Shown piece by piece: positions 6,568-36,659 of a stretch of 41,513 bases of DNA (the stretch's first letter is position 1; every line of letters begins with the position of its first letter). The notes beneath the pieces are model-generated. The model worked only from the letters and a program-made list of their open reading frames with translations, was not told where the DNA came from and searched no databases. Origin of the DNA: Sulfurimonas sp. (GTDB lineage: Bacteria > Campylobacterota > Campylobacteria > Campylobacterales > Sulfurimonadaceae); assembly GCF_018698455.1 (NCBI RefSeq), contig NZ_JABIOQ010000006.1, forward strand, positions 1 to 41,513. The letters are read 5' to 3'. A program made the translations under genes and the position numbers.

Positions 6568-6771
6568 TTAAAGTAACTCGTCCGCTATCTTTTGAGATAA
6601 TACATCTAAGTTAACTTTATACTCTCCAGAGTTTATCGACTCTTTGAGTTTTTCAACACCACTCATATCATCCTGCTTTGTAGCTACGACATCTTGTTTT
6701 GTTGTATTTGAGTCATTCATCTTACTTGCATAAGCCGACTGTACCGCTGCACTATTGAGATTTGAAATCAT
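6568..6771 (-). CDS. flgM: Anti-sigma-28 factor FlgM
   Basis: This 67-residue protein starts MISNLNSAAVQSAYASK. The C-terminal half 'DMSGVEKLKESINSGEYKVNLDVLSQKIADELL' is the usual FlgM signature of helices that wrap FliA (sigma-28). The N-terminal half is low in complexity and presumably disordered. FlgM blocks sigma-28 until it is secreted through the finished hook. It is shorter than enterobacterial FlgM (97 residues), as is usual in Campylobacterota. A sigma-28 type promoter lies just upstream at 6814-6840, which would give the expected autoregulatory loop. Confidence 0.9.
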   Translation of the reverse strand: MISNLNSAAVQSAYASKMNDSNTTKQDVVATKQDDMSGVEKLKESINSGEYKVNLDVLSQKIADELL

Positions 6772-6813
6772 AATCTATCCTTTAACATTTTCTTGGTTTT
6801 TTTATATATAACT

Positions 6814-6840
6814 ATATCGACAAAGGATAGATATTCTTTA
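6814..6840 (-). promoter_or_regulatory. Sigma-28 (FliA) type promoter for flgM-flgN-flgK
   Basis: On the minus strand TAAA (6840-6837) is separated by exactly 17 bases from CGATAT (6819-6814). This equals the spacing in the FliA consensus TAAAGTTT-N11-GCCGATAA. It lies 43 bases before the flgM ATG and just after the flgJ stop. A match of motif and spacing in this position is strong, but no transcript start was measured. Confidence 0.75.
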
Positions 6841-6848
6841 GTGTTTTA

Positions 6849-7142
6849 TCAATTTTTTCTACTAAGATATTCATATAACATCTGTGAAAATCCAAAGCCT
6901 CCTGCACTTGCACGCGAGAGTTCATCTCTGTACATTGACTTATAGATTTTATCACCAGGATCGTTCTCTTGAGAAAATATATTTTTTTCATCTTTGGCTG
7001 CGTTATCCATAAGCATTTTAATGATAACAGCCTCAAAAGCATCAGTTTGATCTCGTAGTTCTTTATCTTCAACATTCTTATTTATTGCTGGAACACTGTT
7101 TTGCTGTGAAAGTATTTGCGAAGTATTTATTGGATAGCTCAT
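6849..7142 (-). CDS. flgJ: Flagellar rod-binding protein FlgJ, rod-cap domain only
   Basis: The 97 residues cover the N-terminal rod-binding (Rod-binding/FlgJ_N) domain: 'DQTDAFEAVIIKMLMDNAAKDE' followed by 'IYKSMYRDELSRASAGGFGFSQMLYEYLSRKN' matches the usual 'F.s.Fl..ml...l...gglGlad.ly.ql' pattern. The C-terminal muramidase domain found in gammaproteobacterial FlgJ is absent, as in other Campylobacterota, so a separate peptidoglycan hydrolase must open the wall for the rod. It overlaps the flgI stop by one base, showing translational coupling. Confidence 0.9.
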   Translation of the reverse strand: MSYPINTSQILSQQNSVPAINKNVEDKELRDQTDAFEAVIIKMLMDNAAKDEKNIFSQENDPGDKIYKSMYRDELSRASAGGFGFSQMLYEYLSRKN

Positions 7143-8188
7143 TAAATCACCTTTAAGTCTGCAGATATACTACCTGCTGTTTTCATAGCTTCTAATATCG
7201 CAATGATATCTTTAGGTGTAGACCCTAGCTTTTGAAGAGAGCGGACTAAGTTTGCAACTGTAGTCGTTCCTTCTTTTGTATACACTTCATTTTGGTTCAG
7301 TCCTATTACAAGGTTTTCATCGACTTCCATTGCTCCATCAGGAGATATAACACTTTTTTGTTCAACTATTTTAATTGTGATATCACCATGCGTGATAATA
7401 ATTGGCTTTAGTGTTATATCAACACCTGCAACGATCGTACCCGTTCTTTCATTAATAATAATTCTGTTTTTAGTCGTATAGTCCATATCAATTTCTTGAA
7501 CCTCTGCCAAAAACTCTATCATAGAACGATTCTCTGGGCGTTTTAGTTTTATACTTCTAGAGTCCATTGCAACAGCTATTTGTGTATTATAAAAACTATT
7601 CACAGCCTTTTGTACTGCCACCGCGTTTTTAAAGTCTGACTCTTTTAAAGAGAGTGTTGCATACTCTTGGTGAAATAGATCTATATTTATTTCACGTTCT
7701 ATAAAACCACCATCGAAAACCATACCCGCTGTAGGGTGTGACTCTGCACCCGATCCTCTTAGATTTCTTCCACCTATACTTACTGAACCTTGTGCTAATG
7801 CATAAATCTTCCCATCAACCCCTTTAAGAGGAGTCATAAGAAGTGTTCCGCCTTCTAGAGATTTAGCATCACCAATTGAGGAAACATTTACACTAAACTT
7901 ATCACCCTGTCTCGCAAAAGGTTTTATTGTAGCTGTTACAACCACTGCTGCAACATTTTTAGATTTTATGTCTATGGGATTCATATCTATATTCATTGCT
8001 TTGAGCATATTTGAAATAGATTGGAGGGTAAATTTTGAAGTTGTCCCATCACCAGTCTTTTTAAGACCGACAACAAGAGAATAACCAATAATCTGATTTT
8101 CTCGAACACCAATGATATTTGATATATCATTAATCTTTGTCGCGTTGAGAGTACTAAGAAGAAGTATAAAAAGGATAAAGAGTTTCAT
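7142..8188 (-). CDS. flgI: Flagellar P-ring protein FlgI
   Basis: This 348-residue secreted protein forms the P-ring around the flagellar rod in the periplasm. The N-terminal signal peptide is MKLFILFILLLSTLNA (cut near residue 16). Motifs include 'DISNIIGVRENQIIGYSLVVGLKKTGD', 'GTLLMTPLKGVDGKIYALAQG' and the C-terminal 'TTVANLVRSLQKLGSTPKDIIAILEAMKTAGSISADL', all typical of FlgI. It is first in the flagellar run and has a sigma-54 type promoter directly upstream (8216-8230). Confidence 0.96.
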   Translation of the reverse strand: MKLFILFILLLSTLNATKINDISNIIGVRENQIIGYSLVVGLKKTGDGTTSKFTLQSISNMLKAMNIDMNPIDIKSKNVAAVVVTATIKPFARQGDKFSVNVSSIGDAKSLEGGTLLMTPLKGVDGKIYALAQGSVSIGGRNLRGSGAESHPTAGMVFDGGFIEREINIDLFHQEYATLSLKESDFKNAVAVQKAVNSFYNTQIAVAMDSRSIKLKRPENRSMIEFLAEVQEIDMDYTTKNRIIINERTGTIVAGVDITLKPIIITHGDITIKIVEQKSVISPDGAMEVDENLVIGLNQNEVYTKEGTTTVANLVRSLQKLGSTPKDIIAILEAMKTAGSISADLKVI

Positions 8189-8215
8189 TAAATTCCTTGC
8201 ATTTACAAGAAAAAA

Positions 8216-8230
8216 GCAATTACTATTCCA
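8216..8230 (-). promoter_or_regulatory. Sigma-54 (RpoN) type promoter for flgI
   Basis: The minus strand reads TGGAATAGTAATTGC. The invariant GG and GC are exactly 10 bases apart, and TTGC matches the -12 element; the -24 element TGGAAT fits TGGCAC at four of six bases. The predicted start is about 12 bases further, leaving a short leader with an AAGGA ribosome site before the ATG at 8188. In Campylobacter and Helicobacter rod/hook genes of this class are RpoN/FlgR-dependent, which supports the call. It lies in the 44-base gap behind rsmD. Confidence 0.7.
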
Positions 8231-8232
8231 CT

Positions 8233-8829
8233 TTACTCTTCGATAAGATAGCTAAGAGTAGTGTTTCCAAACTTTTTAGATTTTTTAAGTTCAAAGTTTC
8301 CTAATTTATTAGGAATTTCTAAACCTGTCATATGCTCAATTATAACCATTTCGACATATTCACTTGGAAGAGCGGCTATAAGAGCCATTGTTTTATCATA
8401 GATATCTTCCATTCCTTCTCGTATGCTAAAAGGTGGGTCAACATAAACATAAGCTCTCTGCTGTGTCTTTTTGAGTTTGGCAACAACTTCTTTTATATTT
8501 GTAAAACTATCCCCACTATAAACATAGCAATCCGAAGCACCAAGAGAAGCTATATTACTTTTTAAAATACGAAGTGCATCTCTGTCTTTTTCCATAAAAT
8601 AGATCTCTTTTGCTCCGCGACTCAAAGCTTCAAGACCAATGGAACCACTTCCAGAGAAAACCTCAACAAAAACTGAATCAACTATGTCAAACTGAAGAGT
8701 ATTAAAAAAAGATTCAAGGACTATGGTTTTTGAACTTCTTGTTGTCACTTTACTGGGTATATTGAGAACCTTACCCTTATACTTTCCAGAGATAATCTTT
8801 TTTGTAAACTTATTACTATTATTTTTCAT
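8233..8829 (-). CDS. rsmD: 16S rRNA (guanine966-N2)-methyltransferase RsmD
   Basis: This is a 198-residue SAM-dependent methyltransferase. It has an N-terminal RNA-binding start 'IISGKYKGKVLNIPS', the SAM motif 'FVEVFSGSGSIGLEALSRGAKEIYFMEKD' and the catalytic DPPF in 'RAYVYVDPPFS'. It modifies a guanine in helix 31 of 16S rRNA on the assembling 30S subunit. Length and motifs fit the family. It is the last gene of a tightly packed minus-strand run from 10861; its start overlaps the end of the next upstream gene by 11 bases. Confidence 0.93.
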   Translation of the reverse strand: MKNNSNKFTKKIISGKYKGKVLNIPSKVTTRSSKTIVLESFFNTLQFDIVDSVFVEVFSGSGSIGLEALSRGAKEIYFMEKDRDALRILKSNIASLGASDCYVYSGDSFTNIKEVVAKLKKTQQRAYVYVDPPFSIREGMEDIYDKTMALIAALPSEYVEMVIIEHMTGLEIPNKLGNFELKKSKKFGNTTLSYLIEE

Positions 8830-9187
8830 AAAATGCTTTTACCGCTCTTATAATATTAGACTGATACTCTTGTGTTAAAAGTTCTATCCGTTTTTCTAAA
8901 ATACTAAAATCCATACATTCAGTATGACTATAAGGCTCTTCTTCTGATTCACTTCCACCTAACTCTTTATATCTACTTTCAAGTGCAAGAATCAGCTGTG
9001 ATTTTGAAAATGGTTTTAGTAAGTCAACATTCTCACCACTTCCAATATAAAAGCACCTATCATCATTAAGGCACTCCTGATCTCTTACCACTATGTCACA
9101 TTTTTTTGTACTACTAAGATACTTCTCTAAAAAAAGTTCCAATGACTTTTGTAATAAGGGAGACTTACACTCTACTGCAATTTTCAT
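8819..9187 (-). CDS. Small cytoplasmic protein with receiver-like fold features (function unknown)
   Basis: I do not recognise this 122-residue protein as a named family. Residues 1-75 have an alternating strand/helix pattern like a response-regulator receiver: 'MKIAVECKSPLLQKSLELFLEKYL', 'CDIVVRD', then 'LLKPFSKSQLILALESRYKEL', where the KPF followed by a helix copies the end of receiver domains. The usual acidic pair after strand 1 is missing, so phosphorylation as in CheY is doubtful. A short helical tail (about 92-122) follows. It sits between rsmD and the exonuclease-like gene with overlapping or nearly touching ends. The receiver resemblance is inference. Confidence 0.6.
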   Translation of the reverse strand: MKIAVECKSPLLQKSLELFLEKYLSSTKKCDIVVRDQECLNDDRCFYIGSGENVDLLKPFSKSQLILALESRYKELGGSESEEEPYSHTECMDFSILEKRIELLTQEYQSNIIRAVKAFYEK

Positions 9188-9189
9188 AA

Positions 9190-9894
9190 CTATCCTTGTA
9201 AGTAGTAGTTTATACTATACTTTATATCTTCATCTAAATCATCGGCTTTATTTAAAAGCCACTCGGCATAAGCCCTATCAACATGACAAACCTCTTCTAT
9301 AAACTGACCCTTATGTTTTCCAAAATTAAACTTACAAATTAGCACATTTTGGGAACTAAGCTCTATCATTTTTTCAATGGATGCCATATCTTCGAGGTAG
9401 TGTAAAAGTAGCTCTGTCACTATAACATCACTAAGTGCGTTGTTCGCATATAAAGCATCTTTAATTCCATAGCACTCTTTTTGTTTTTCTTCATTACGAT
9501 ATAGCTTGAGTTCATAACGTAACACTTGTAAGGAAAACAGTTCACACTCTGGTATAAGATGTTTAGTGACTCTAGAGGAATCAATAACACTTCCTTTCCA
9601 TAATAGTCCACTTCCTACAAGTTTTTCTAAAAAGAAGTTTGCATTATGTGAGATGAGAATACTTTCTTCATTGTTATTATCTGACAAAAAATGATAAGCT
9701 TTACTATCAAGGAATGAACCTTTCTCTTTTATCATTTCATTCGTGATATGATGTACACTTGATGCTTGTGGAGATATTTTTTTACCCTCATTAAGAAGTT
9801 CATATATATAATGCTCCTCATTTAAAAGCGCGATAGAACAGATTTTATCATTTACCTCCACCCCAGTTGTTTCCATGTCTAAAAAAATTAACAT
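9190..9894 (-). CDS. DnaQ-like 3'-5' exonuclease domain with C-terminal DUF3820-like segment
   Basis: The 234-residue protein begins 'MLIFLDMETTGVEVNDKICSIALL', the ExoI motif (DxE) of DEDD exonucleases; 'SSVHHITNEMI' follows as in DnaQ proteins. The ExoII region 'SHNANFFLEKLV' lacks the usual Asp after AxF, and the ExoIII region 'YANNALSDVIVTELLLHYL' keeps the Asp but has Asn where DnaQ has His. Activity may therefore be weak or lost. The C-terminal 'FNFGKHKGQFIEEVCHVDRAYAEWLLNK' resembles the short DUF3820-type segment found behind some exonucleases. It overlaps the following membrane-protein gene by 7 bases. Confidence 0.75.
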   Translation of the reverse strand: MLIFLDMETTGVEVNDKICSIALLNEEHYIYELLNEGKKISPQASSVHHITNEMIKEKGSFLDSKAYHFLSDNNNEESILISHNANFFLEKLVGSGLLWKGSVIDSSRVTKHLIPECELFSLQVLRYELKLYRNEEKQKECYGIKDALYANNALSDVIVTELLLHYLEDMASIEKMIELSSQNVLICKFNFGKHKGQFIEEVCHVDRAYAEWLLNKADDLDEDIKYSINYYLQG

Positions 9895-15712: not shown

Positions 15713-15787
15713 TGGTGCTCGATACTGGATTTGAACCAGTGACCACCTCCATGTCATGGAGGCACTCTACCGCTGAGTTAATCGAGC
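15713..15787 (-). tRNA. tRNA-Val (anticodon GAC)
   Basis: The minus strand folds as a complete tRNA. The acceptor stem is GCTCGAT/ATCGAGC; the D arm ACTC-AGCGGTA-GAGT follows. The anticodon stem CCTCC/GGAGG holds the loop ATGACAT, whose middle bases GAC read valine codons GUC/GUU. The T arm is ACTGG-TTCAAAT-CCAGT, with discriminator A and an encoded CCA. It lies between the scar region and the DUF1624 gene, in the same direction as the rpmH-to-ruvX run. Confidence 0.95.
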
Positions 15788-30613: not shown

Positions 30614-30928
30614 ATGGAACTTTCTGTCTCAAACTTAATGATGTTATTTTTTCTATTTGCTTTAACTACAAGTCTCTGGAAGGTTTATCCTTTTTTACAA
30701 ACAAAAACGCTCAAAGATAATGATAAAACGGATGAAGCCCAGATGCAATTAAAAGAGTTAATGTTAAAAATCATAAAAGAAAATAATGAAGATTTAAAAA
30801 GAGAGGAACTCTTTTTGAAAATGAAAGAAGATAAGGATTTTGACAGTAAACTCTTTTGGCGTTTTAATCAAAATCGTTTAAACCACCTTATTAAAGCTCA
30901 TGACCGGGAACACTTTACTAATAATTAG
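30614..30928 (+). CDS. Small membrane-anchored protein, function unknown
   Basis: The 104 residues consist of one N-terminal membrane helix (NLMMLFFLFALTTSLWKVYPFL) and a charged helical cytoplasmic part (LKELMLKIIKENNEDLKREELFLKMKEDKDF), ending 'FWRFNQNRLNHLIKAHDREHFTNN'. An AAAGGGG ribosome site precedes the ATG. It is divergent from cmoA. I cannot assign a family. Confidence 0.6.
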   Translation: MELSVSNLMMLFFLFALTTSLWKVYPFLQTKTLKDNDKTDEAQMQLKELMLKIIKENNEDLKREELFLKMKEDKDFDSKLFWRFNQNRLNHLIKAHDREHFTNN

Positions 30929-31044: not shown

Positions 31045-31072
31045 TTTACATATTATGTATTTATCTTATAAT
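31045..31072 (+). promoter_or_regulatory. Sigma-70 type promoter of the four-gene envelope operon
   Basis: TTTACA (31045-31050), a 16-base spacer and a perfect TATAAT (31067-31072) lie just before an AAGGGAA ribosome site and the ATG at 31091. This would start the transcript at about 31079 and cover the run to 36105. Confidence 0.6.
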
Positions 31073-31090: not shown

Positions 31091-32014
31091 ATGTTTACAA
31101 ATGTTATCAGAACAGCTCTATTTTTCTTAGGTCTTACAATGATTTTAGGAGGTTGTGCTAAAAAACAACTCCTTCTAAATACATATGTAGCTCCTAAAAA
31201 GCCTAAAGAAGTTACTCAAATGCTTGATCAAAGCACATCATCTGCAGGTTTTTTAGAAATAGAAATAGTGAAAAATATTTTAAAAGCCGATGGAATAAAG
31301 TCGGATAAATCTTTTGATAGTAAACTTCTTTCAAGTTTGAAAAAATTCATTACACAAACTAATTTCATTTCTATTAGTGAGGTTGAAGATAAGGGAAGTC
31401 TTTCTCTTGACATGAAAGTTTTAGTATTTGAATATAAAACTACTTCAAATACTATAACAGGTTTAGTAGGTGTAGAGTTTAACATTCGAAAAGATGGAAC
31501 AGTTTTTTATTCACAAAATTATAAACATAATATTAAAAGATACTCAAAAGCTGGAAAACAAGGTTTACCTTCTAGAGCGCAACTACTTTCTGAAGCATCG
31601 GACTATTTAGCTAAAAAACTCATTAAAGACATCTCTCCTATGCAGACACGTAAACTTGTTGAGATTATGTCACTTCCAAGTGAACTTGAATATACACAGA
31701 AATATGCAAAAGACAAGAATTACGAGGGTGCTATAAAGGGTATGAAGAAGTACGATGGTGAAAAAACATATGAGTATTATTTTAACCTTGCTGTATATTA
31801 TGAAGCATTAGCTTCTAAAACTGATGATTTAGCACTGTTGACAAAAGCGGATGAGTATTATGAAAAAGCAATGCAACTGAGTGAAGGATCAAATGAAATC
31901 ATTACAAAAGGGAAATCTAAGTTCGACAAGTACTATAAGATAATAAAAAAAGTTGCTGATCAAAAAGCCAAAAATGCTGTGCAAGACGACAACAGCATGT
32001 TTCAAATTCTATAA
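31091..32014 (+). CDS. Lipoprotein with possible CsgG/LpoB-like domain and TPR-like C-terminus
   Basis: The 307 residues start with a lipoprotein signal (…LFFLGLTMILGGC; cut before Cys22). Residues about 45-180 have the alternating pattern of CsgG/LpoB-type periplasmic domains ('DSKLLSSLKKFITQTNFISISE', 'LSLDMKVLVFEYKTT', 'EASDYLAKKLIKDISP'). Residues about 195-275 look like two TPR units ('YAKDKNYEGAIKGMKKY', 'YFNLAVYYEALAS', 'LTKADEYYEKAMQLSEG'). It is probably anchored to the outer membrane. It is first of a four-gene run; the domain call is inference and needs a profile search. Confidence 0.65.
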   Translation: MFTNVIRTALFFLGLTMILGGCAKKQLLLNTYVAPKKPKEVTQMLDQSTSSAGFLEIEIVKNILKADGIKSDKSFDSKLLSSLKKFITQTNFISISEVEDKGSLSLDMKVLVFEYKTTSNTITGLVGVEFNIRKDGTVFYSQNYKHNIKRYSKAGKQGLPSRAQLLSEASDYLAKKLIKDISPMQTRKLVEIMSLPSELEYTQKYAKDKNYEGAIKGMKKYDGEKTYEYYFNLAVYYEALASKTDDLALLTKADEYYEKAMQLSEGSNEIITKGKSKFDKYYKIIKKVADQKAKNAVQDDNSMFQIL

Positions 32015-32031
32015 AACAACAAGGAAAATGA

Positions 32032-33279
32032 ATGTTAAAAAAGATTAAAAGTTCATCAATCAAGTTAAGTATAGTTGCAGCATTAGCTGTAAGTCCGTTT
32101 TCATTATATGCAGCTTCTGCTGGAGGAATGATTGAAGGTTCTTCAGAGTCTTCAAGTGCTATGCTAGAAGACCCAAGTTTTGAAAAGCAGATAGTAAGAA
32201 TTAATGTTGGTATAAACTTAGTAAGAATCAATACTGACATCTTAGAGAGTATGCCTGTTTCACAAGATAGTGAATGGGTTGATAAAGTTGTTTCAGCGGT
32301 AGACTATGCTACTGTAAATAATTTAGATGCAGTGAAGTACGATGCATATTACTCTACTGTAAACGTTACTAATGCCCTTCTTGGTAAAGCAGTTTCTATT
32401 AGAATGAGTCCTCTTGAAGCTAGACTATTTTGGCAAGCATCTGTACTATACAAAAATAAAACAAATGGAAATAAAGGTTTTAATATACCTAATATGAATG
32501 TTTTTCCTGATATTTCAGACACAAAGACATACACTTCATTTAAATCAGATTCAAAAGTTTCATTCATAGATGTTGAAGCTGCTAGTGGAAATTTATATAA
32601 CAATGTTGAAGATGCTGTTATATCATTACTTCCAGAAGATTTACAAGAAGCGGTTAGTTCTGCAAAGTCTGAATATATTACAGCAAGAGATGAACTAGGT
32701 AGTGCTACATCAGATGTAAAAACAATCGATGCTTGGTTAGATGATGATGCTAATGCACAAAGCGGTGAAAGAGCTGATAAAGAAGCAGAACTTGAGACAG
32801 CGACAGTACTAGAAGAAGAGAGAGGAGCTGCTTTTGAAGAGAAAGAAAATGTTTATTTTGAATTAATTACGAGTGGAGCAGAAGCTATCGAATCTAATTT
32901 TGATGAATCTAAGGTTCCTTTAGCTAAAAAACTTGTAAATTTATTAGATGCAGTTGATAATAACGCATTTGGTGCAGTCAGTATGTTCGCATCAGCAACT
33001 GCAGGTATGGCAAGAGGTTCCGGAATGATAGAAAAGGAATTAAAGGCAATGACAATAGCACAAGGCTTAACTAGTTTAGTTGGTAATCAAAAAGAATTTA
33101 TAGGTGAAAGATTATCAAGACTTGGAGTAGGTACTTTATTAGCTCTTCCAAATATATTTATTGGTAGCTACTATGCAGGTTCACAGTCAAGTAAAATAGG
33201 AAAATATCAGGACATTGTAAATGCAGTGTTAGATGGTGCAGAGGCAGCTAAATCAAGTGCTGATGAAGCTACTAAATAA
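32032..33279 (+). CDS. Exported protein of unknown function with a coiled-coil region
   Basis: I do not recognise this 415-residue protein. A cleavable signal peptide is clear (SSIKLSIVAALAVSPFSLYAAS). A mixed domain follows (about 50-190), then an acidic, Ala/Glu-rich coiled-coil-like stretch (about 200-280, 'ERADKEAELETATVLEEERGAAFEEKENVYFE'). A helical C-terminal part contains a hydrophobic stretch ('LGVGTLLALPNIFIGSYYAG', about 364-383) that could touch a membrane. It overlaps the next gene by one base and sits between two lipoprotein genes, so it is likely periplasmic and works with them. Confidence 0.65.
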   Translation: MLKKIKSSSIKLSIVAALAVSPFSLYAASAGGMIEGSSESSSAMLEDPSFEKQIVRINVGINLVRINTDILESMPVSQDSEWVDKVVSAVDYATVNNLDAVKYDAYYSTVNVTNALLGKAVSIRMSPLEARLFWQASVLYKNKTNGNKGFNIPNMNVFPDISDTKTYTSFKSDSKVSFIDVEAASGNLYNNVEDAVISLLPEDLQEAVSSAKSEYITARDELGSATSDVKTIDAWLDDDANAQSGERADKEAELETATVLEEERGAAFEEKENVYFELITSGAEAIESNFDESKVPLAKKLVNLLDAVDNNAFGAVSMFASATAGMARGSGMIEKELKAMTIAQGLTSLVGNQKEFIGERLSRLGVGTLLALPNIFIGSYYAGSQSSKIGKYQDIVNAVLDGAEAAKSSADEATK

Positions 33280-34307
33280 TGCTAAACATCTCTAAAAGTA
33301 TTTTACTTATAGCTATAAGTACTTTAATAGTTGGATGTGGAGCGGGCACTCAGCCCACTCCATCCGCTGGTAATTTACCACAATGGTTCCTAAATCCTAA
33401 TCACTCAAATTCAATATTTTATTATGGTGTTGGTGAAGGTTCTAGTAAAGATACTGCCAAAGCTAATGCTCTATCTCAGATAGGTGGTGAAATTTCTATT
33501 AGTGTATCCGCTGATTTAGATATGACTACAACCGAAACTAATGGCCAAATTGATGAATATATGAAATCTCAAACGAAGTCATCAATAGAAAAGATTAAAT
33601 TCTCTGGTGCTGAAGTTATGCAAAATGCATATAATGCTGGTAACTTTTATAGTTATGTTAAAGTCGACAGAGATGTTTTATTTTCAGCACAAAAGAATGC
33701 TATGCTCGTAGAGTATGACAAATTAAATTCTCTGTTTGATAGTGCTAAATTAAACAATATTTTTGTTTTAATAAATCAAAAGTCAAAAATTGAAAAACTT
33801 GTTAGTACGGTAGCATCTAAATTGCCAATTTTAAAAGCAATAAATGCAGATTTCAAACAAGCTCAATATCAATCCAAGTTAGATGCGATAAGTAAAGGCT
33901 TAAGAGATTCTATACCAAATGCCATGGTACATGTAACTCATAGCAAGGTACCTGCATTCGCAGAAGTTGTAAAACAATACATATCTTCATATGGAATGAC
34001 CTTGGTAGATAATCCAAAGTCTGTGAAAAATAAAAATAATCTAATCATCGTAAAGGTTAGAAAAACAGATAAGCCTAAAAATGTTAAAACTTCTGATCCA
34101 AGACTTAAGGGTGCTTCATTCGCAGATGTAATAGTTACATTAACGACTCTAAACAGTACAAATAAGGTTATTGCTCAGAATAGAATTCAAGTATTAAACA
34201 TTTCAAAGGACGGGTATGCGGCGGCAGCCATTAAGACTCCTAAATTTGAAAATGAGATAAAGAAAAAAGGTATATTAAACATCCTTTTAGACACTGCAAA
34301 TAATTAG
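33279..34307 (+). CDS. LPP20-family lipoprotein
   Basis: The 342 residues begin MLNISKSILLIAISTLIVGC, a lipoprotein signal with Cys20. The next part 'LPQWFLNPNHSNSIFYYGVGEGSSKDTAKANALSQIGGEISISVSADL' is the hallmark of the LPP20 domain (P.W......Y.VG.G......A...A...ia..i...v). The C-terminal half is unlike small LPP20 proteins and resembles no family I can name. The start overlaps the stop of the preceding gene, so the two are translationally coupled. LPP20 lipoproteins are often encoded next to LpoB/CsgG-like lipoproteins. Confidence 0.78.
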   Translation: MLNISKSILLIAISTLIVGCGAGTQPTPSAGNLPQWFLNPNHSNSIFYYGVGEGSSKDTAKANALSQIGGEISISVSADLDMTTTETNGQIDEYMKSQTKSSIEKIKFSGAEVMQNAYNAGNFYSYVKVDRDVLFSAQKNAMLVEYDKLNSLFDSAKLNNIFVLINQKSKIEKLVSTVASKLPILKAINADFKQAQYQSKLDAISKGLRDSIPNAMVHVTHSKVPAFAEVVKQYISSYGMTLVDNPKSVKNKNNLIIVKVRKTDKPKNVKTSDPRLKGASFADVIVTLTTLNSTNKVIAQNRIQVLNISKDGYAAAAIKTPKFENEIKKKGILNILLDTANN

Positions 34308-34320
34308 TCAAAAGTACTAA

Positions 34321-36105
34321 ATGAGAAAACTTATATGCAGATTTCTCTTCTTGCTCTTTTTAAGCACTTCACTATTCGCTTACGATAACTTGATTTTGGA
34401 TGAACTCTCTGTTCATCCATATTGGGCTAAACTACTTCACTATGATAAAACAACTCTCATAAATAATAAAGATTTTTTTTTATCTAAAAAAGAAAATATA
34501 GATTTAAAAGATGAACTTCTCGAAACTATAAAAGCATTCCAAAACAACTCCTCTTCAATTTGTAAATACCCCGCAAGATATAAATGGATAAACTCAAAAC
34601 TGCATTTAAATCTTAAGCATGCTGAGTGCAAGAAATTAAAAGATTTTCTCAAACCAAATTTTAATAAGATAAGTTTAGTTTTCACCTCTGAACGCTATAA
34701 CTCTCCGGCATCTGTATTTGGGCATACATTTATTAAAGTAGAGTCGGATGATGCTAAGTATGTGATCGATTATACTGCCAAGGTACCAATAAAGGTTAGC
34801 TCTCCAGTATATGCCTATAAAGGAATATTTGGCGGCTATAAAAGTAAATATAAATTTTTGCCATTTTTAGCAAAAGAACATGAATATAGAAATGAAGAGT
34901 TTCGTGATTTAATCAGTTTTGATCTCCTCTTTAAAGAAGATGAAATTGAAAATATTTTATTACATCTTTATGAAATTTTAGACACAGACCAAGACTATTA
35001 TTTTATGAGTAGGAACTGTAGTTCAGAGCTTATTAAACTTATTGATTTCGCAAGGGATGATATGGAACTCACTTCAAAATTATCTCATATCACAGTGCCC
35101 ATAGATATTGTGCATATTTTAAAAAATTCCGGATATATTAAAAACATAAATTCAAGTGCATCAAAATTTAAACAATTCAACAATGTGATCTTTAAGATGG
35201 ATGACAACAATATAAACATATTAAAAAAGATAATTACAAGAAAAAGAAGTGTATATAATTTTTACAATGATAAGAGAATAACCAAAAAAGATAAAAAAAA
35301 TATAGTTTTAGCAGCAATCAATTTCATAGAGATAGAGTCTACAAAAAGTGATTTTGATACTAAACTACTCTATCCACTCATGAAACTAATAAAAATAAAA
35401 AATAAGAATAGCTTGGAGCAGCTAGATGAAAATACTAGTTATGATGATATCCCTCTTTCGAATAAATTTCATAAATTTGTAGTCGGTCATGGTTACAAAA
35501 TGGACAAAGTGAATTATGCTTATCTTGGTTATCGATACTTATATAGAAATAGATTTGACCTCATGGATAAGATTGAGAAAAATGGAAGTGTTGAAGTTAT
35601 GGATTTTATGTTTAGATTACAAGATGACAAGATTGACCTAGAAAAGCTTACCCTTATAAACCTTGAAGCCTTACCAATATCGAGTATATTCTTTACTCAA
35701 AATACAAAAAGAATGCAGGTAGGTGCCCAGAGGCTTTTTTATGATGACCATCTTTATGCGTATATAAATTATGGCCTAGGATATAGATATAGGTTAAACA
35801 AGAACTTGACATATCATATATCAGCTCAAACAGGGGCTTACTATCATAAAGAAGATATTTATATGGCTTCAGCAGAATTTTCATTAGAGTATCAAGAAGT
35901 ACATAAATACATATTTGACATAGTGTATAAACATAGATATTTCTATGACTTCGAATCTTCTAATAGCCAAATCAAAGCACATAGATTAGATCTAAATAGC
36001 CACATTAAAGTATTTAAAAACAACACAATTAATTTTAGTTTTTCATATAATATTGATATAAAAGAACACTACCAAACTGCGATAAACTATACTCTTTACT
36101 TTTAA
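34321..36105 (+). CDS. DUF4105 (Lnb N-terminal) periplasmic protein with a probable beta-barrel C-terminus
   Basis: The 594-residue protein has a signal peptide (LICRFLFLLFLSTSLFA) and a DUF4105 domain at about 100-260. That domain has 'NSPASVFGHTFIKV' (His135) and 'YYFMSRNCSSELIKLID' (Cys233), the pair expected for its papain/NlpC-like active site. The last ~170 residues alternate aromatic and polar residues ('HLYAYINYGLGYRYRLNKNLTYHISAQTGAYYH', 'KYIFDIVYKHRYFYDF') and end in YTLYF, an outer-membrane barrel signature. Thus a catalytic periplasmic domain seems tethered to the outer membrane. It is last of the four-gene run. The substrate is unknown. Confidence 0.78.
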   Translation: MRKLICRFLFLLFLSTSLFAYDNLILDELSVHPYWAKLLHYDKTTLINNKDFFLSKKENIDLKDELLETIKAFQNNSSSICKYPARYKWINSKLHLNLKHAECKKLKDFLKPNFNKISLVFTSERYNSPASVFGHTFIKVESDDAKYVIDYTAKVPIKVSSPVYAYKGIFGGYKSKYKFLPFLAKEHEYRNEEFRDLISFDLLFKEDEIENILLHLYEILDTDQDYYFMSRNCSSELIKLIDFARDDMELTSKLSHITVPIDIVHILKNSGYIKNINSSASKFKQFNNVIFKMDDNNINILKKIITRKRSVYNFYNDKRITKKDKKNIVLAAINFIEIESTKSDFDTKLLYPLMKLIKIKNKNSLEQLDENTSYDDIPLSNKFHKFVVGHGYKMDKVNYAYLGYRYLYRNRFDLMDKIEKNGSVEVMDFMFRLQDDKIDLEKLTLINLEALPISSIFFTQNTKRMQVGAQRLFYDDHLYAYINYGLGYRYRLNKNLTYHISAQTGAYYHKEDIYMASAEFSLEYQEVHKYIFDIVYKHRYFYDFESSNSQIKAHRLDLNSHIKVFKNNTINFSFSYNIDIKEHYQTAINYTLYF

Positions 36106-36221: not shown

Positions 36222-36659
36222 ATGTTAGATTCATTCAAAGTCAATCGTCAAAAATATTATACGGATATAGTTCAAGAAATTAAATCTTGTTCTTATAGAA
36301 ATAAAAGGTATAGTTTAAATTTTTCAATTGCAATAGCTTTAGTTAGTGGTCAAATTAATCTTAATAGTTTTTCTGGCTACAAAAGAAAAAGCGACAAATT
36401 CATAGTTTTAGAAGATCATCTTGCTTGCTTAATCCTTGAAGGAACAGATTCAGATTCTGCGATAAGAGCCACATCAAAATTACACAATCAATTTCAATTA
36501 GAAAATTTTAATAAAAAAATATTTATAGCAGTGGTAACTGCGAGTGATTATACTGATGATAATGCAATGATACACTCTTTATTTAATCTATTAGTATATG
36601 CGGCTGAAAATAATATGGATAACTTAGTTATTGACAAAGATCAGATACCTGGGAAATAA
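36222..36659 (+). CDS. Degenerate GGDEF-like domain protein
   Basis: The 145 residues resemble the second half of a diguanylate cyclase fold: 'DKFIVLEDHLACLILEGTDSDSAIRATSKL' fits 'gdeFaillp.td...A...a..l', and 'LLVYAAENNMDNLVIDKDQI' fits the final 'ad.AlY.AK..GrnrV'. The catalytic GG(D/E)EF loop is absent ('KRKSDKFIVLED'). Cyclase activity is therefore unlikely; it may bind a partner or a nucleotide. It stands alone, with AAAGGA before the ATG. The family assignment is inference. Confidence 0.5.
   Translation: MLDSFKVNRQKYYTDIVQEIKSCSYRNKRYSLNFSIAIALVSGQINLNSFSGYKRKSDKFIVLEDHLACLILEGTDSDSAIRATSKLHNQFQLENFNKKIFIAVVTASDYTDDNAMIHSLFNLLVYAAENNMDNLVIDKDQIPGK

Follow-up and report, generated by a model that had tools for sequence, protein, structure and literature searches.

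What structure of the cell envelope do four closely spaced genes for exported proteins serve, and do the four belong together? The question is raised by positions 31091-36105 of contig NZ_JABIOQ010000006.1 from Sulfurimonas sp. (assembly GCF_018698455.1); the whole stretch of DNA analyzed, 41,513 nucleotides (nt) in length, is called the window. The locus encodes two lipoproteins (gene 1, or lipo1, and gene 3, a member of the LPP20 family), a mostly helical exported protein between them (gene 2, or mid) and a protein with a DUF4105 domain (gene 4). The preferred answer, to which a probability of roughly 0.45 is assigned, is that genes 1-3 (the trio) specify the outer-membrane part of a complex spanning the envelope, a part which is usually coupled to the Bat and MoxR proteins and is here paired with an acyl-transfer enzyme. 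The assignment of the parts to their families is well supported. What the analysis shows is the gene linkage, the place in the Bat cluster, the domain families, the fold class of gene 1 and the catalytic residues; from these we infer the joint mechanism, including complex formation, location, rings, enzyme activity and substrate.

The Four-Gene Locus

The features of the locus are as follows (lengths in amino acids, aa).

31045-31072, plus strand: possible sigma-70 promoter, TTTACA-16-TATAAT, uncertain; 11/12 match to the consensus
31091-32014, plus strand: gene 1 (lipo1), lipoprotein, 307 aa; lipobox ILGGC
32032-33279, plus strand: gene 2 (mid), exported mostly helical protein, 415 aa; signal-peptide-like N-terminus
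33279-34307, plus strand: gene 3, LPP20 lipoprotein, 342 aa; lipobox LIVGC; PF02169
34321-36105, plus strand: gene 4, with the Pfam domains DUF7843, Lnb_N (DUF4105) and DUF7840, 594 aa

Genes 1 and 2 are separated by 17 nt, genes 2 and 3 overlap by one base (TAATG), and genes 3 and 4 are 13 nt apart. The export signals and lipoboxes were judged by eye; genes 2 and 4 have an ordinary signal-peptide-like start and no lipobox. An earlier note, made from the letters alone, had described four tightly spaced exported genes with two lipoboxes and a one-base overlap and had read them as an envelope operon; coordinates, gaps and N-termini agree with that description, and the reading is supported. All four are kept as proteins across other genomes and are therefore genuine genes rather than chance open reading frames (ORFs).

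The good promoter that the same note placed before gene 1 is only weakly supported. Despite its consensus match, promoter-like sites are not enriched in the region relative to shuffled sequences (43 vs 41.7), and the -10 box ends 18 nt upstream of the gene 1 ATG, so near that a transcription start there would truncate the Shine-Dalgarno sequence. A TATTAT...ATC stretch upstream of the operon is common to the window and two relatives.

Genes 1-3 as a Travelling Unit

The order and strand of genes 1-3 are the same in all loci that show the three genes (24/24). The exceptions are two loci at contig ends, L021 (gene 2 and LPP20 without gene 1), L016, in which gene 2 occurs as a tandem duplicate (6908-8092 and 8119-9432), and L045, where an additional gene 2 (6627-7763) stands alone, with neither lipoprotein gene beside it, the genome having a complete trio as well.

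All trio loci lie in Campylobacterota of the Sulfurimonas kind, and within the phylum strong matches to gene 1 are found only in genomes that also have gene 2. Of 60 close relatives, 5 have gene 2, as do 16 of 76 well-completed genus genomes and 14 of 397 phylum genomes (E ≤ 0.001; two of these 14 marginal). Loci recovered from a collection of 84,980 species belong to metagenome-assembled genomes named Sulfurimonas, Helicobacteraceae, Epsilonproteobacteria or “bacterium,” and a plasmid collection contained no match to gene 2. Judged by these sequence matches, the gene 2 family belongs to the Sulfurimonas group, in which its spread is patchy. On the moxR gene tree its presence changes about 12 times, a count inflated by poorly supported branches, which points to repeated gain or loss.

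The trio exists in two types. Identity is 55-78% within the type of the window and 46-72% within the other, and between the types it is about 31% for gene 1, 26% for gene 2 and 23% for gene 3. These similar between-type values indicate that the three proteins diverged in step. The earlier note had supposed that all four genes travel together, which proves true only for the window and two relatives (G009 and G002); at the other trio loci there is no DUF4105 neighbor.

The batD-moxR Interval

The usual partner of the trio in its relatives, which the earlier note had not named, is a MoxR/VWA/BatD cluster, where the trio in most cases sits between batD and moxR. The gene order of this arrangement is VWA, VWA-TPR, BatD, trio, MoxR, DUF58, small membrane protein, VWA, VWA-TPR and BatD. 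The stretch before moxR was read in about 70 genus genomes, and this slot usually contains one of the following cassettes, all of which include an LPP20 protein.

Cassette (a): the trio
Cassette (b): a pair of CsgG (PF03783) and LPP20, the CsgG resembling gene 1 by profile
Cassette (c): a 244-aa protein, LPP20, a 475-aa lipoprotein, sometimes DUF1425, and LpoB (PF13036)

Cassettes (a) and (b), or (b) and (c), lie side by side in some genomes. The linkage of LPP20 with CsgG/LpoB lipoproteins, listed in the earlier note as a known association, is thus seen at this position. Across 76 genomes, gene 2 and the slot CsgG hardly coincide: gene 2 occurs in 16 and the slot CsgG in 56, with both present in 3 and both absent from 7 (Fisher p 2e-7).

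In the genome of the window, batD is directly followed by moxR, leaving the slot empty. Six genomes lack a slot cassette, namely this one, G009, G002, G453, G010 and G309, and they include all three that have a DUF4105-linked trio (p 4e-4, based on about 70 readable slots and with kinship ignored). In L127 (G002) and L158 (G453) no lipoprotein cassette occupies the slot; in its place are genes for a chemoreceptor-like protein of about 760 aa and a leucyl/phenylalanyl-tRNA transferase. In a second genus (g25; G163, G209; L019, L050, L051) the trio is likewise not next to moxR, and the DUF481 gene that comes after it may parallel the DUF4105 partner in the window.

The clusters that contain most relatives of the trio, with their VWA, VWA-TPR, BatD, MoxR and DUF58 genes, are of the Bat (Bacteroides aerotolerance) kind, whereas the trio of the window is detached from its cluster. 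For the Bat clusters of Bacteroides, Leptospira and Borrelia, CsgG/LPP20 lipoprotein cassettes are not reported in the available portions of PMC3557215 and PMC5700661. According to the latter, some Bat proteins expose VWA domains to the periplasm, and envelope defects have been reported in rhizobial mutants (cited in PMC5700661), which agrees with a role in the envelope. In the collection of papers searched, none joins MoxR with LPP20 and none deals with COG3014.

Gene 4, an Lnb-Like Protein

Gene 4 matches PF13387 (Lnb_N, formerly DUF4105) at 118.1 bits, against a cut-off of 22.2, and also PF25225 (62 bits) and PF25222 (56 bits), the domains DUF7843 and DUF7840. A match to ribosomal protein S8 fell under the Pfam cut-off and was taken as chance. 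The residues H135, N232 and C233 are invariant among 10 homologues. The DUF4105 assignment made from the letters is right, and the Cys/His active site proposed with it is supported.

What the earlier note did not contain is the identity of this family. According to PMC12994826, which cites doi 10.1073/pnas.2410909121, DUF4105 has been identified as Lnb, the enzyme that N-acylates lipoproteins in Bacteroides; the same paper describes it as kin to permuted NlpC/P60 lipid enzymes and acyltransferases. An independent classification places DUF4105 among the papain-like folds (PMC10318531). Gene 4 resembles Lnb of Bacteroides in its Lnb_N domain and in the invariant His and Cys of the permuted NlpC/P60 core, and on these sequence features is a candidate Lnb-like thiol acyltransferase. 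It differs in that it adds DUF7843 and a barrel-like C-terminus with DUF7840, and in that its genome also has Lnt. The protein ends in YTLYF, and a C-terminal Phe is present in all three trio-linked copies; together with the DUF7840 match, this residue would fit an outer-membrane barrel-like C-terminus.

Since the genome carries an ordinary Lnt, gene 4 would not be a general N-acyltransferase. The idea that DUF4105 stands in for a missing Lnt was likewise rejected: of the 60 genomes searched, 59 match Lnt, that of the window among them, and in 54 the match is above the cut-off.

It may be asked whether gene 4 is merely a chance neighbor of the trio with an unrelated role. DUF4105 is present in 36 of 60 genus genomes, mostly away from the trio, and its adjoining the trio in 3 genomes only would agree with such an explanation. 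It is nevertheless considered unlikely, because the same four-gene order is found in three genomes whose flanking genes differ, LPP20 and DUF4105 being 13 nt apart in two of them and in adjoining frames in the third. This constancy despite differing flanks suggests that in these genomes the genes travel as a single four-gene unit. Other DUF4105 genes of the genus (L097, L099, L100) follow a small lipoprotein gene (SGCAT... motif), and DUF4105 next to lipoprotein genes thus recurs in the genus.

Genes 2 and 3

Gene 3 matches PF02169 at 42.8 bits (cut-off 25.9), in keeping with its earlier assignment to LPP20, and resembles the solved LPP20-family protein 4kzs over residues 34-187 (phmmer, E 7e-5). 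It differs from other LPP20 lipoproteins in being longer (342 aa), and the window form is placed in a separate clade with two relatives. At least five further LPP20 genes (L104, L105, L106, L107, L108) occur in the same genome, several of which adjoin another lipoprotein gene and one an FlhB-like gene.

Gene 2 was already singled out in the earlier note as a protein of no known family, and neither Pfam nor NCBIfam contains a match to it. The family alignment comprises 17 members. The AlphaFold2 model has a predicted local distance difference test score (pLDDT) of 69 overall and of 82-93 for residues 191-320, which include a long helical hairpin (residues 202-237 and 247-288). A Foldseek comparison of this model (pLDDT 69) with the PDB yields helical hairpins only, with a best E of 0.03. 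A VIA-align Z of about 10 over about 90 residues was not used to assign a fold, as a common helical-hairpin arrangement reaches the same value. A relationship to the 475-aa protein of the LpoB cassette was discarded, the hhalign match (probability 2.3) being to the signal peptide only. The gene 2 family and the overall gene arrangement appear to be new, while the other parts belong to known families.

Gene 2 has a lipobox in most relatives, though not in the type of the window. Which of the three proteins bears the lipid anchor thus varies by locus (L005, L006, L011, L016, L020, L048 and window 32032-33279); the LPP20 Cys is lost in several relatives, and the lipidation Cys of gene 1 is kept wherever the N-terminus is seen.

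The Fold of Gene 1 and the Nature of the Module

The AlphaFold2 model of gene 1 (pLDDT 85) consists of an alpha/beta domain (residues ~26-191) and a C-terminal TPR domain (~195-291). In Foldseek, PelC, CsgG, LptE and TraT are among the best matches of the alpha/beta domain, with E from 2.5e-5, which bears out the CsgG/LpoB-like fold anticipated in the earlier note. The value for CsgG (4uv2; E 6.7e-5) is near those of PelC and LptE and indicates likeness of fold only. VIA-align gives a Z of about 10-11 for the alpha/beta domain (root-mean-square deviation ~2.6-4, 113-131 residues) and about 10-11 for the TPR domain over 80-100 residues. Gene 1 therefore shares a lipobox and the same alpha/beta fold with the CsgG, LpoB, PelC, LptE and TraT lipoproteins, but differs from them in its additional TPR domain and in its Pfam matches: the CsgG (PF03783) and LpoB (PF13036) profiles match neither gene 1 nor 15 members of its family. 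DUF6340 matches gene 1 only below the Pfam cut-off, and a match to phage P, also under the cut-off, was taken as chance. PDB sequence searches with genes 1, 2 and 4 gave no usable match.

By profile, gene 1 resembles the CsgG-TPR lipoprotein of the Bat slot (probability 96.5, E 7e-10), although much of this match is TPR, a common repeat, with the last helix of the first domain included. Because of this resemblance, the trio and the CsgG-LPP20 cassettes probably share two parts, gene 2 being the addition.

The kind of machine to which these parts belong can be read in more than one way. Acting like LpoB, gene 1 could extend from the outer membrane and contact a penicillin-binding protein, LPP20 and gene 2 serving as a scaffold and the Bat linkage reflecting control of envelope growth; the trio would then regulate a peptidoglycan synthase. 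A true LpoB does lie beside LPP20 in cassette (c) (PF13036, 139-148 bits), and the slot CsgG protein also matches LpoB weakly (28.5 bits). Gene 1 itself, however, has no such Pfam match and possesses a TPR domain that is absent from LpoB, and a regulator of this kind is regarded as improbable. Somewhat less credence is given to a CsgG/PelC-kind export channel or secretion scaffold, in which gene 4 would modify an exported lipid or lipoprotein. Several of the best structural matches of gene 1 (PelC, CsgG, TraT, LptE) do form oligomeric outer-membrane assemblies, but many non-channel lipoproteins have the same fold, and in the loci read the trio has no conserved neighbor that would encode a substrate, a synthase or a beta-barrel for export. 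That the trio forms a ring-like accessory to some cell-surface machine, in the manner of the flagellar H/T ring (FlgP/FlgT), is very improbable: the structural matches of gene 1 do include FlgT and the LPHT ring (Z ~10), and one LPP20 paralogue of the genome has the FlhB-like neighbor mentioned above, but the FlgT/LPHT match is no better than that to LptE or PelC, and the trio is absent from most of the genus and not near recognizable flagellar clusters in the loci read.

Proposed Arrangement

In the proposed trans-envelope complex, the trio would be the outer-membrane module and combine three parts: gene 1 as a CsgG/LpoB-superfamily lipoprotein that bears a TPR arm, gene 2 as a helical spacer and gene 3 as the LPP20 lipoprotein. 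Most relatives have the module inserted in their MoxR/VWA (Bat) cluster, and there it probably makes up the outer-membrane side of the complex, with the Bat proteins (VWA-TPR, BatD) as the inner-membrane and periplasmic side and MoxR as the ATP-driven chaperone. Gene 1 (in the manner of PelC, CsgG and TraT) and LPP20 may form rings or scaffolds at the outer membrane, while the hairpin of gene 2 and the TPR arm of gene 1 would reach into the periplasm. In the clade of the window, the module is uncoupled from the empty Bat slot and would be made together with an outer-membrane Lnb-like enzyme. Via Cys233 and His135, this enzyme could transfer or remove acyl chains of lipoproteins or phospholipids, its substrates perhaps being the lipoproteins of the module itself.

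Several points weigh against this arrangement. The trio in the genome of the window is not adjacent to moxR, which lies on a different contig. Lnt is found there above the cut-off, so that this genome does not need the Lnb-like enzyme for routine lipoprotein N-acylation. After correction for the tree, the exchange between gene 2 and the slot CsgG keeps the direction expected, with an average of 2.9 opposite and 0.1 same among 5 independent pairs, but is not significant, the pairs being too few. Moreover, the function of the Bat proteins is itself described as unresolved (PMC3557215).

A bolder version, which is put forward as doubtful, would treat the batD-moxR interval as an exchange slot for LPP20 cassettes that fit the Bat/MoxR machine with different outer-membrane modules; in the clade of the window the module would lie outside the slot and have its own outer-membrane Lnb-type acyltransferase, remodelling the acylation of its lipoproteins. 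Bat/MoxR clusters are widespread and conserved, and their function has been unclear since their description in Bacteroides in 1999. If the proposal is true, the cassettes fixed in one place of these clusters would represent concrete outer-membrane partners, the function would become testable within one genus, and the version in the window would be a direct genetic link between the module and an enzyme of the lipoprotein-acyltransferase type.

Other Features of the Window

Short ORFs without a credible family match lie on either side of the operon, at 30614-30928 and 36222-36659. The sole Rfam match of the window is a tRNA gene on the minus strand, at 15716-15787.

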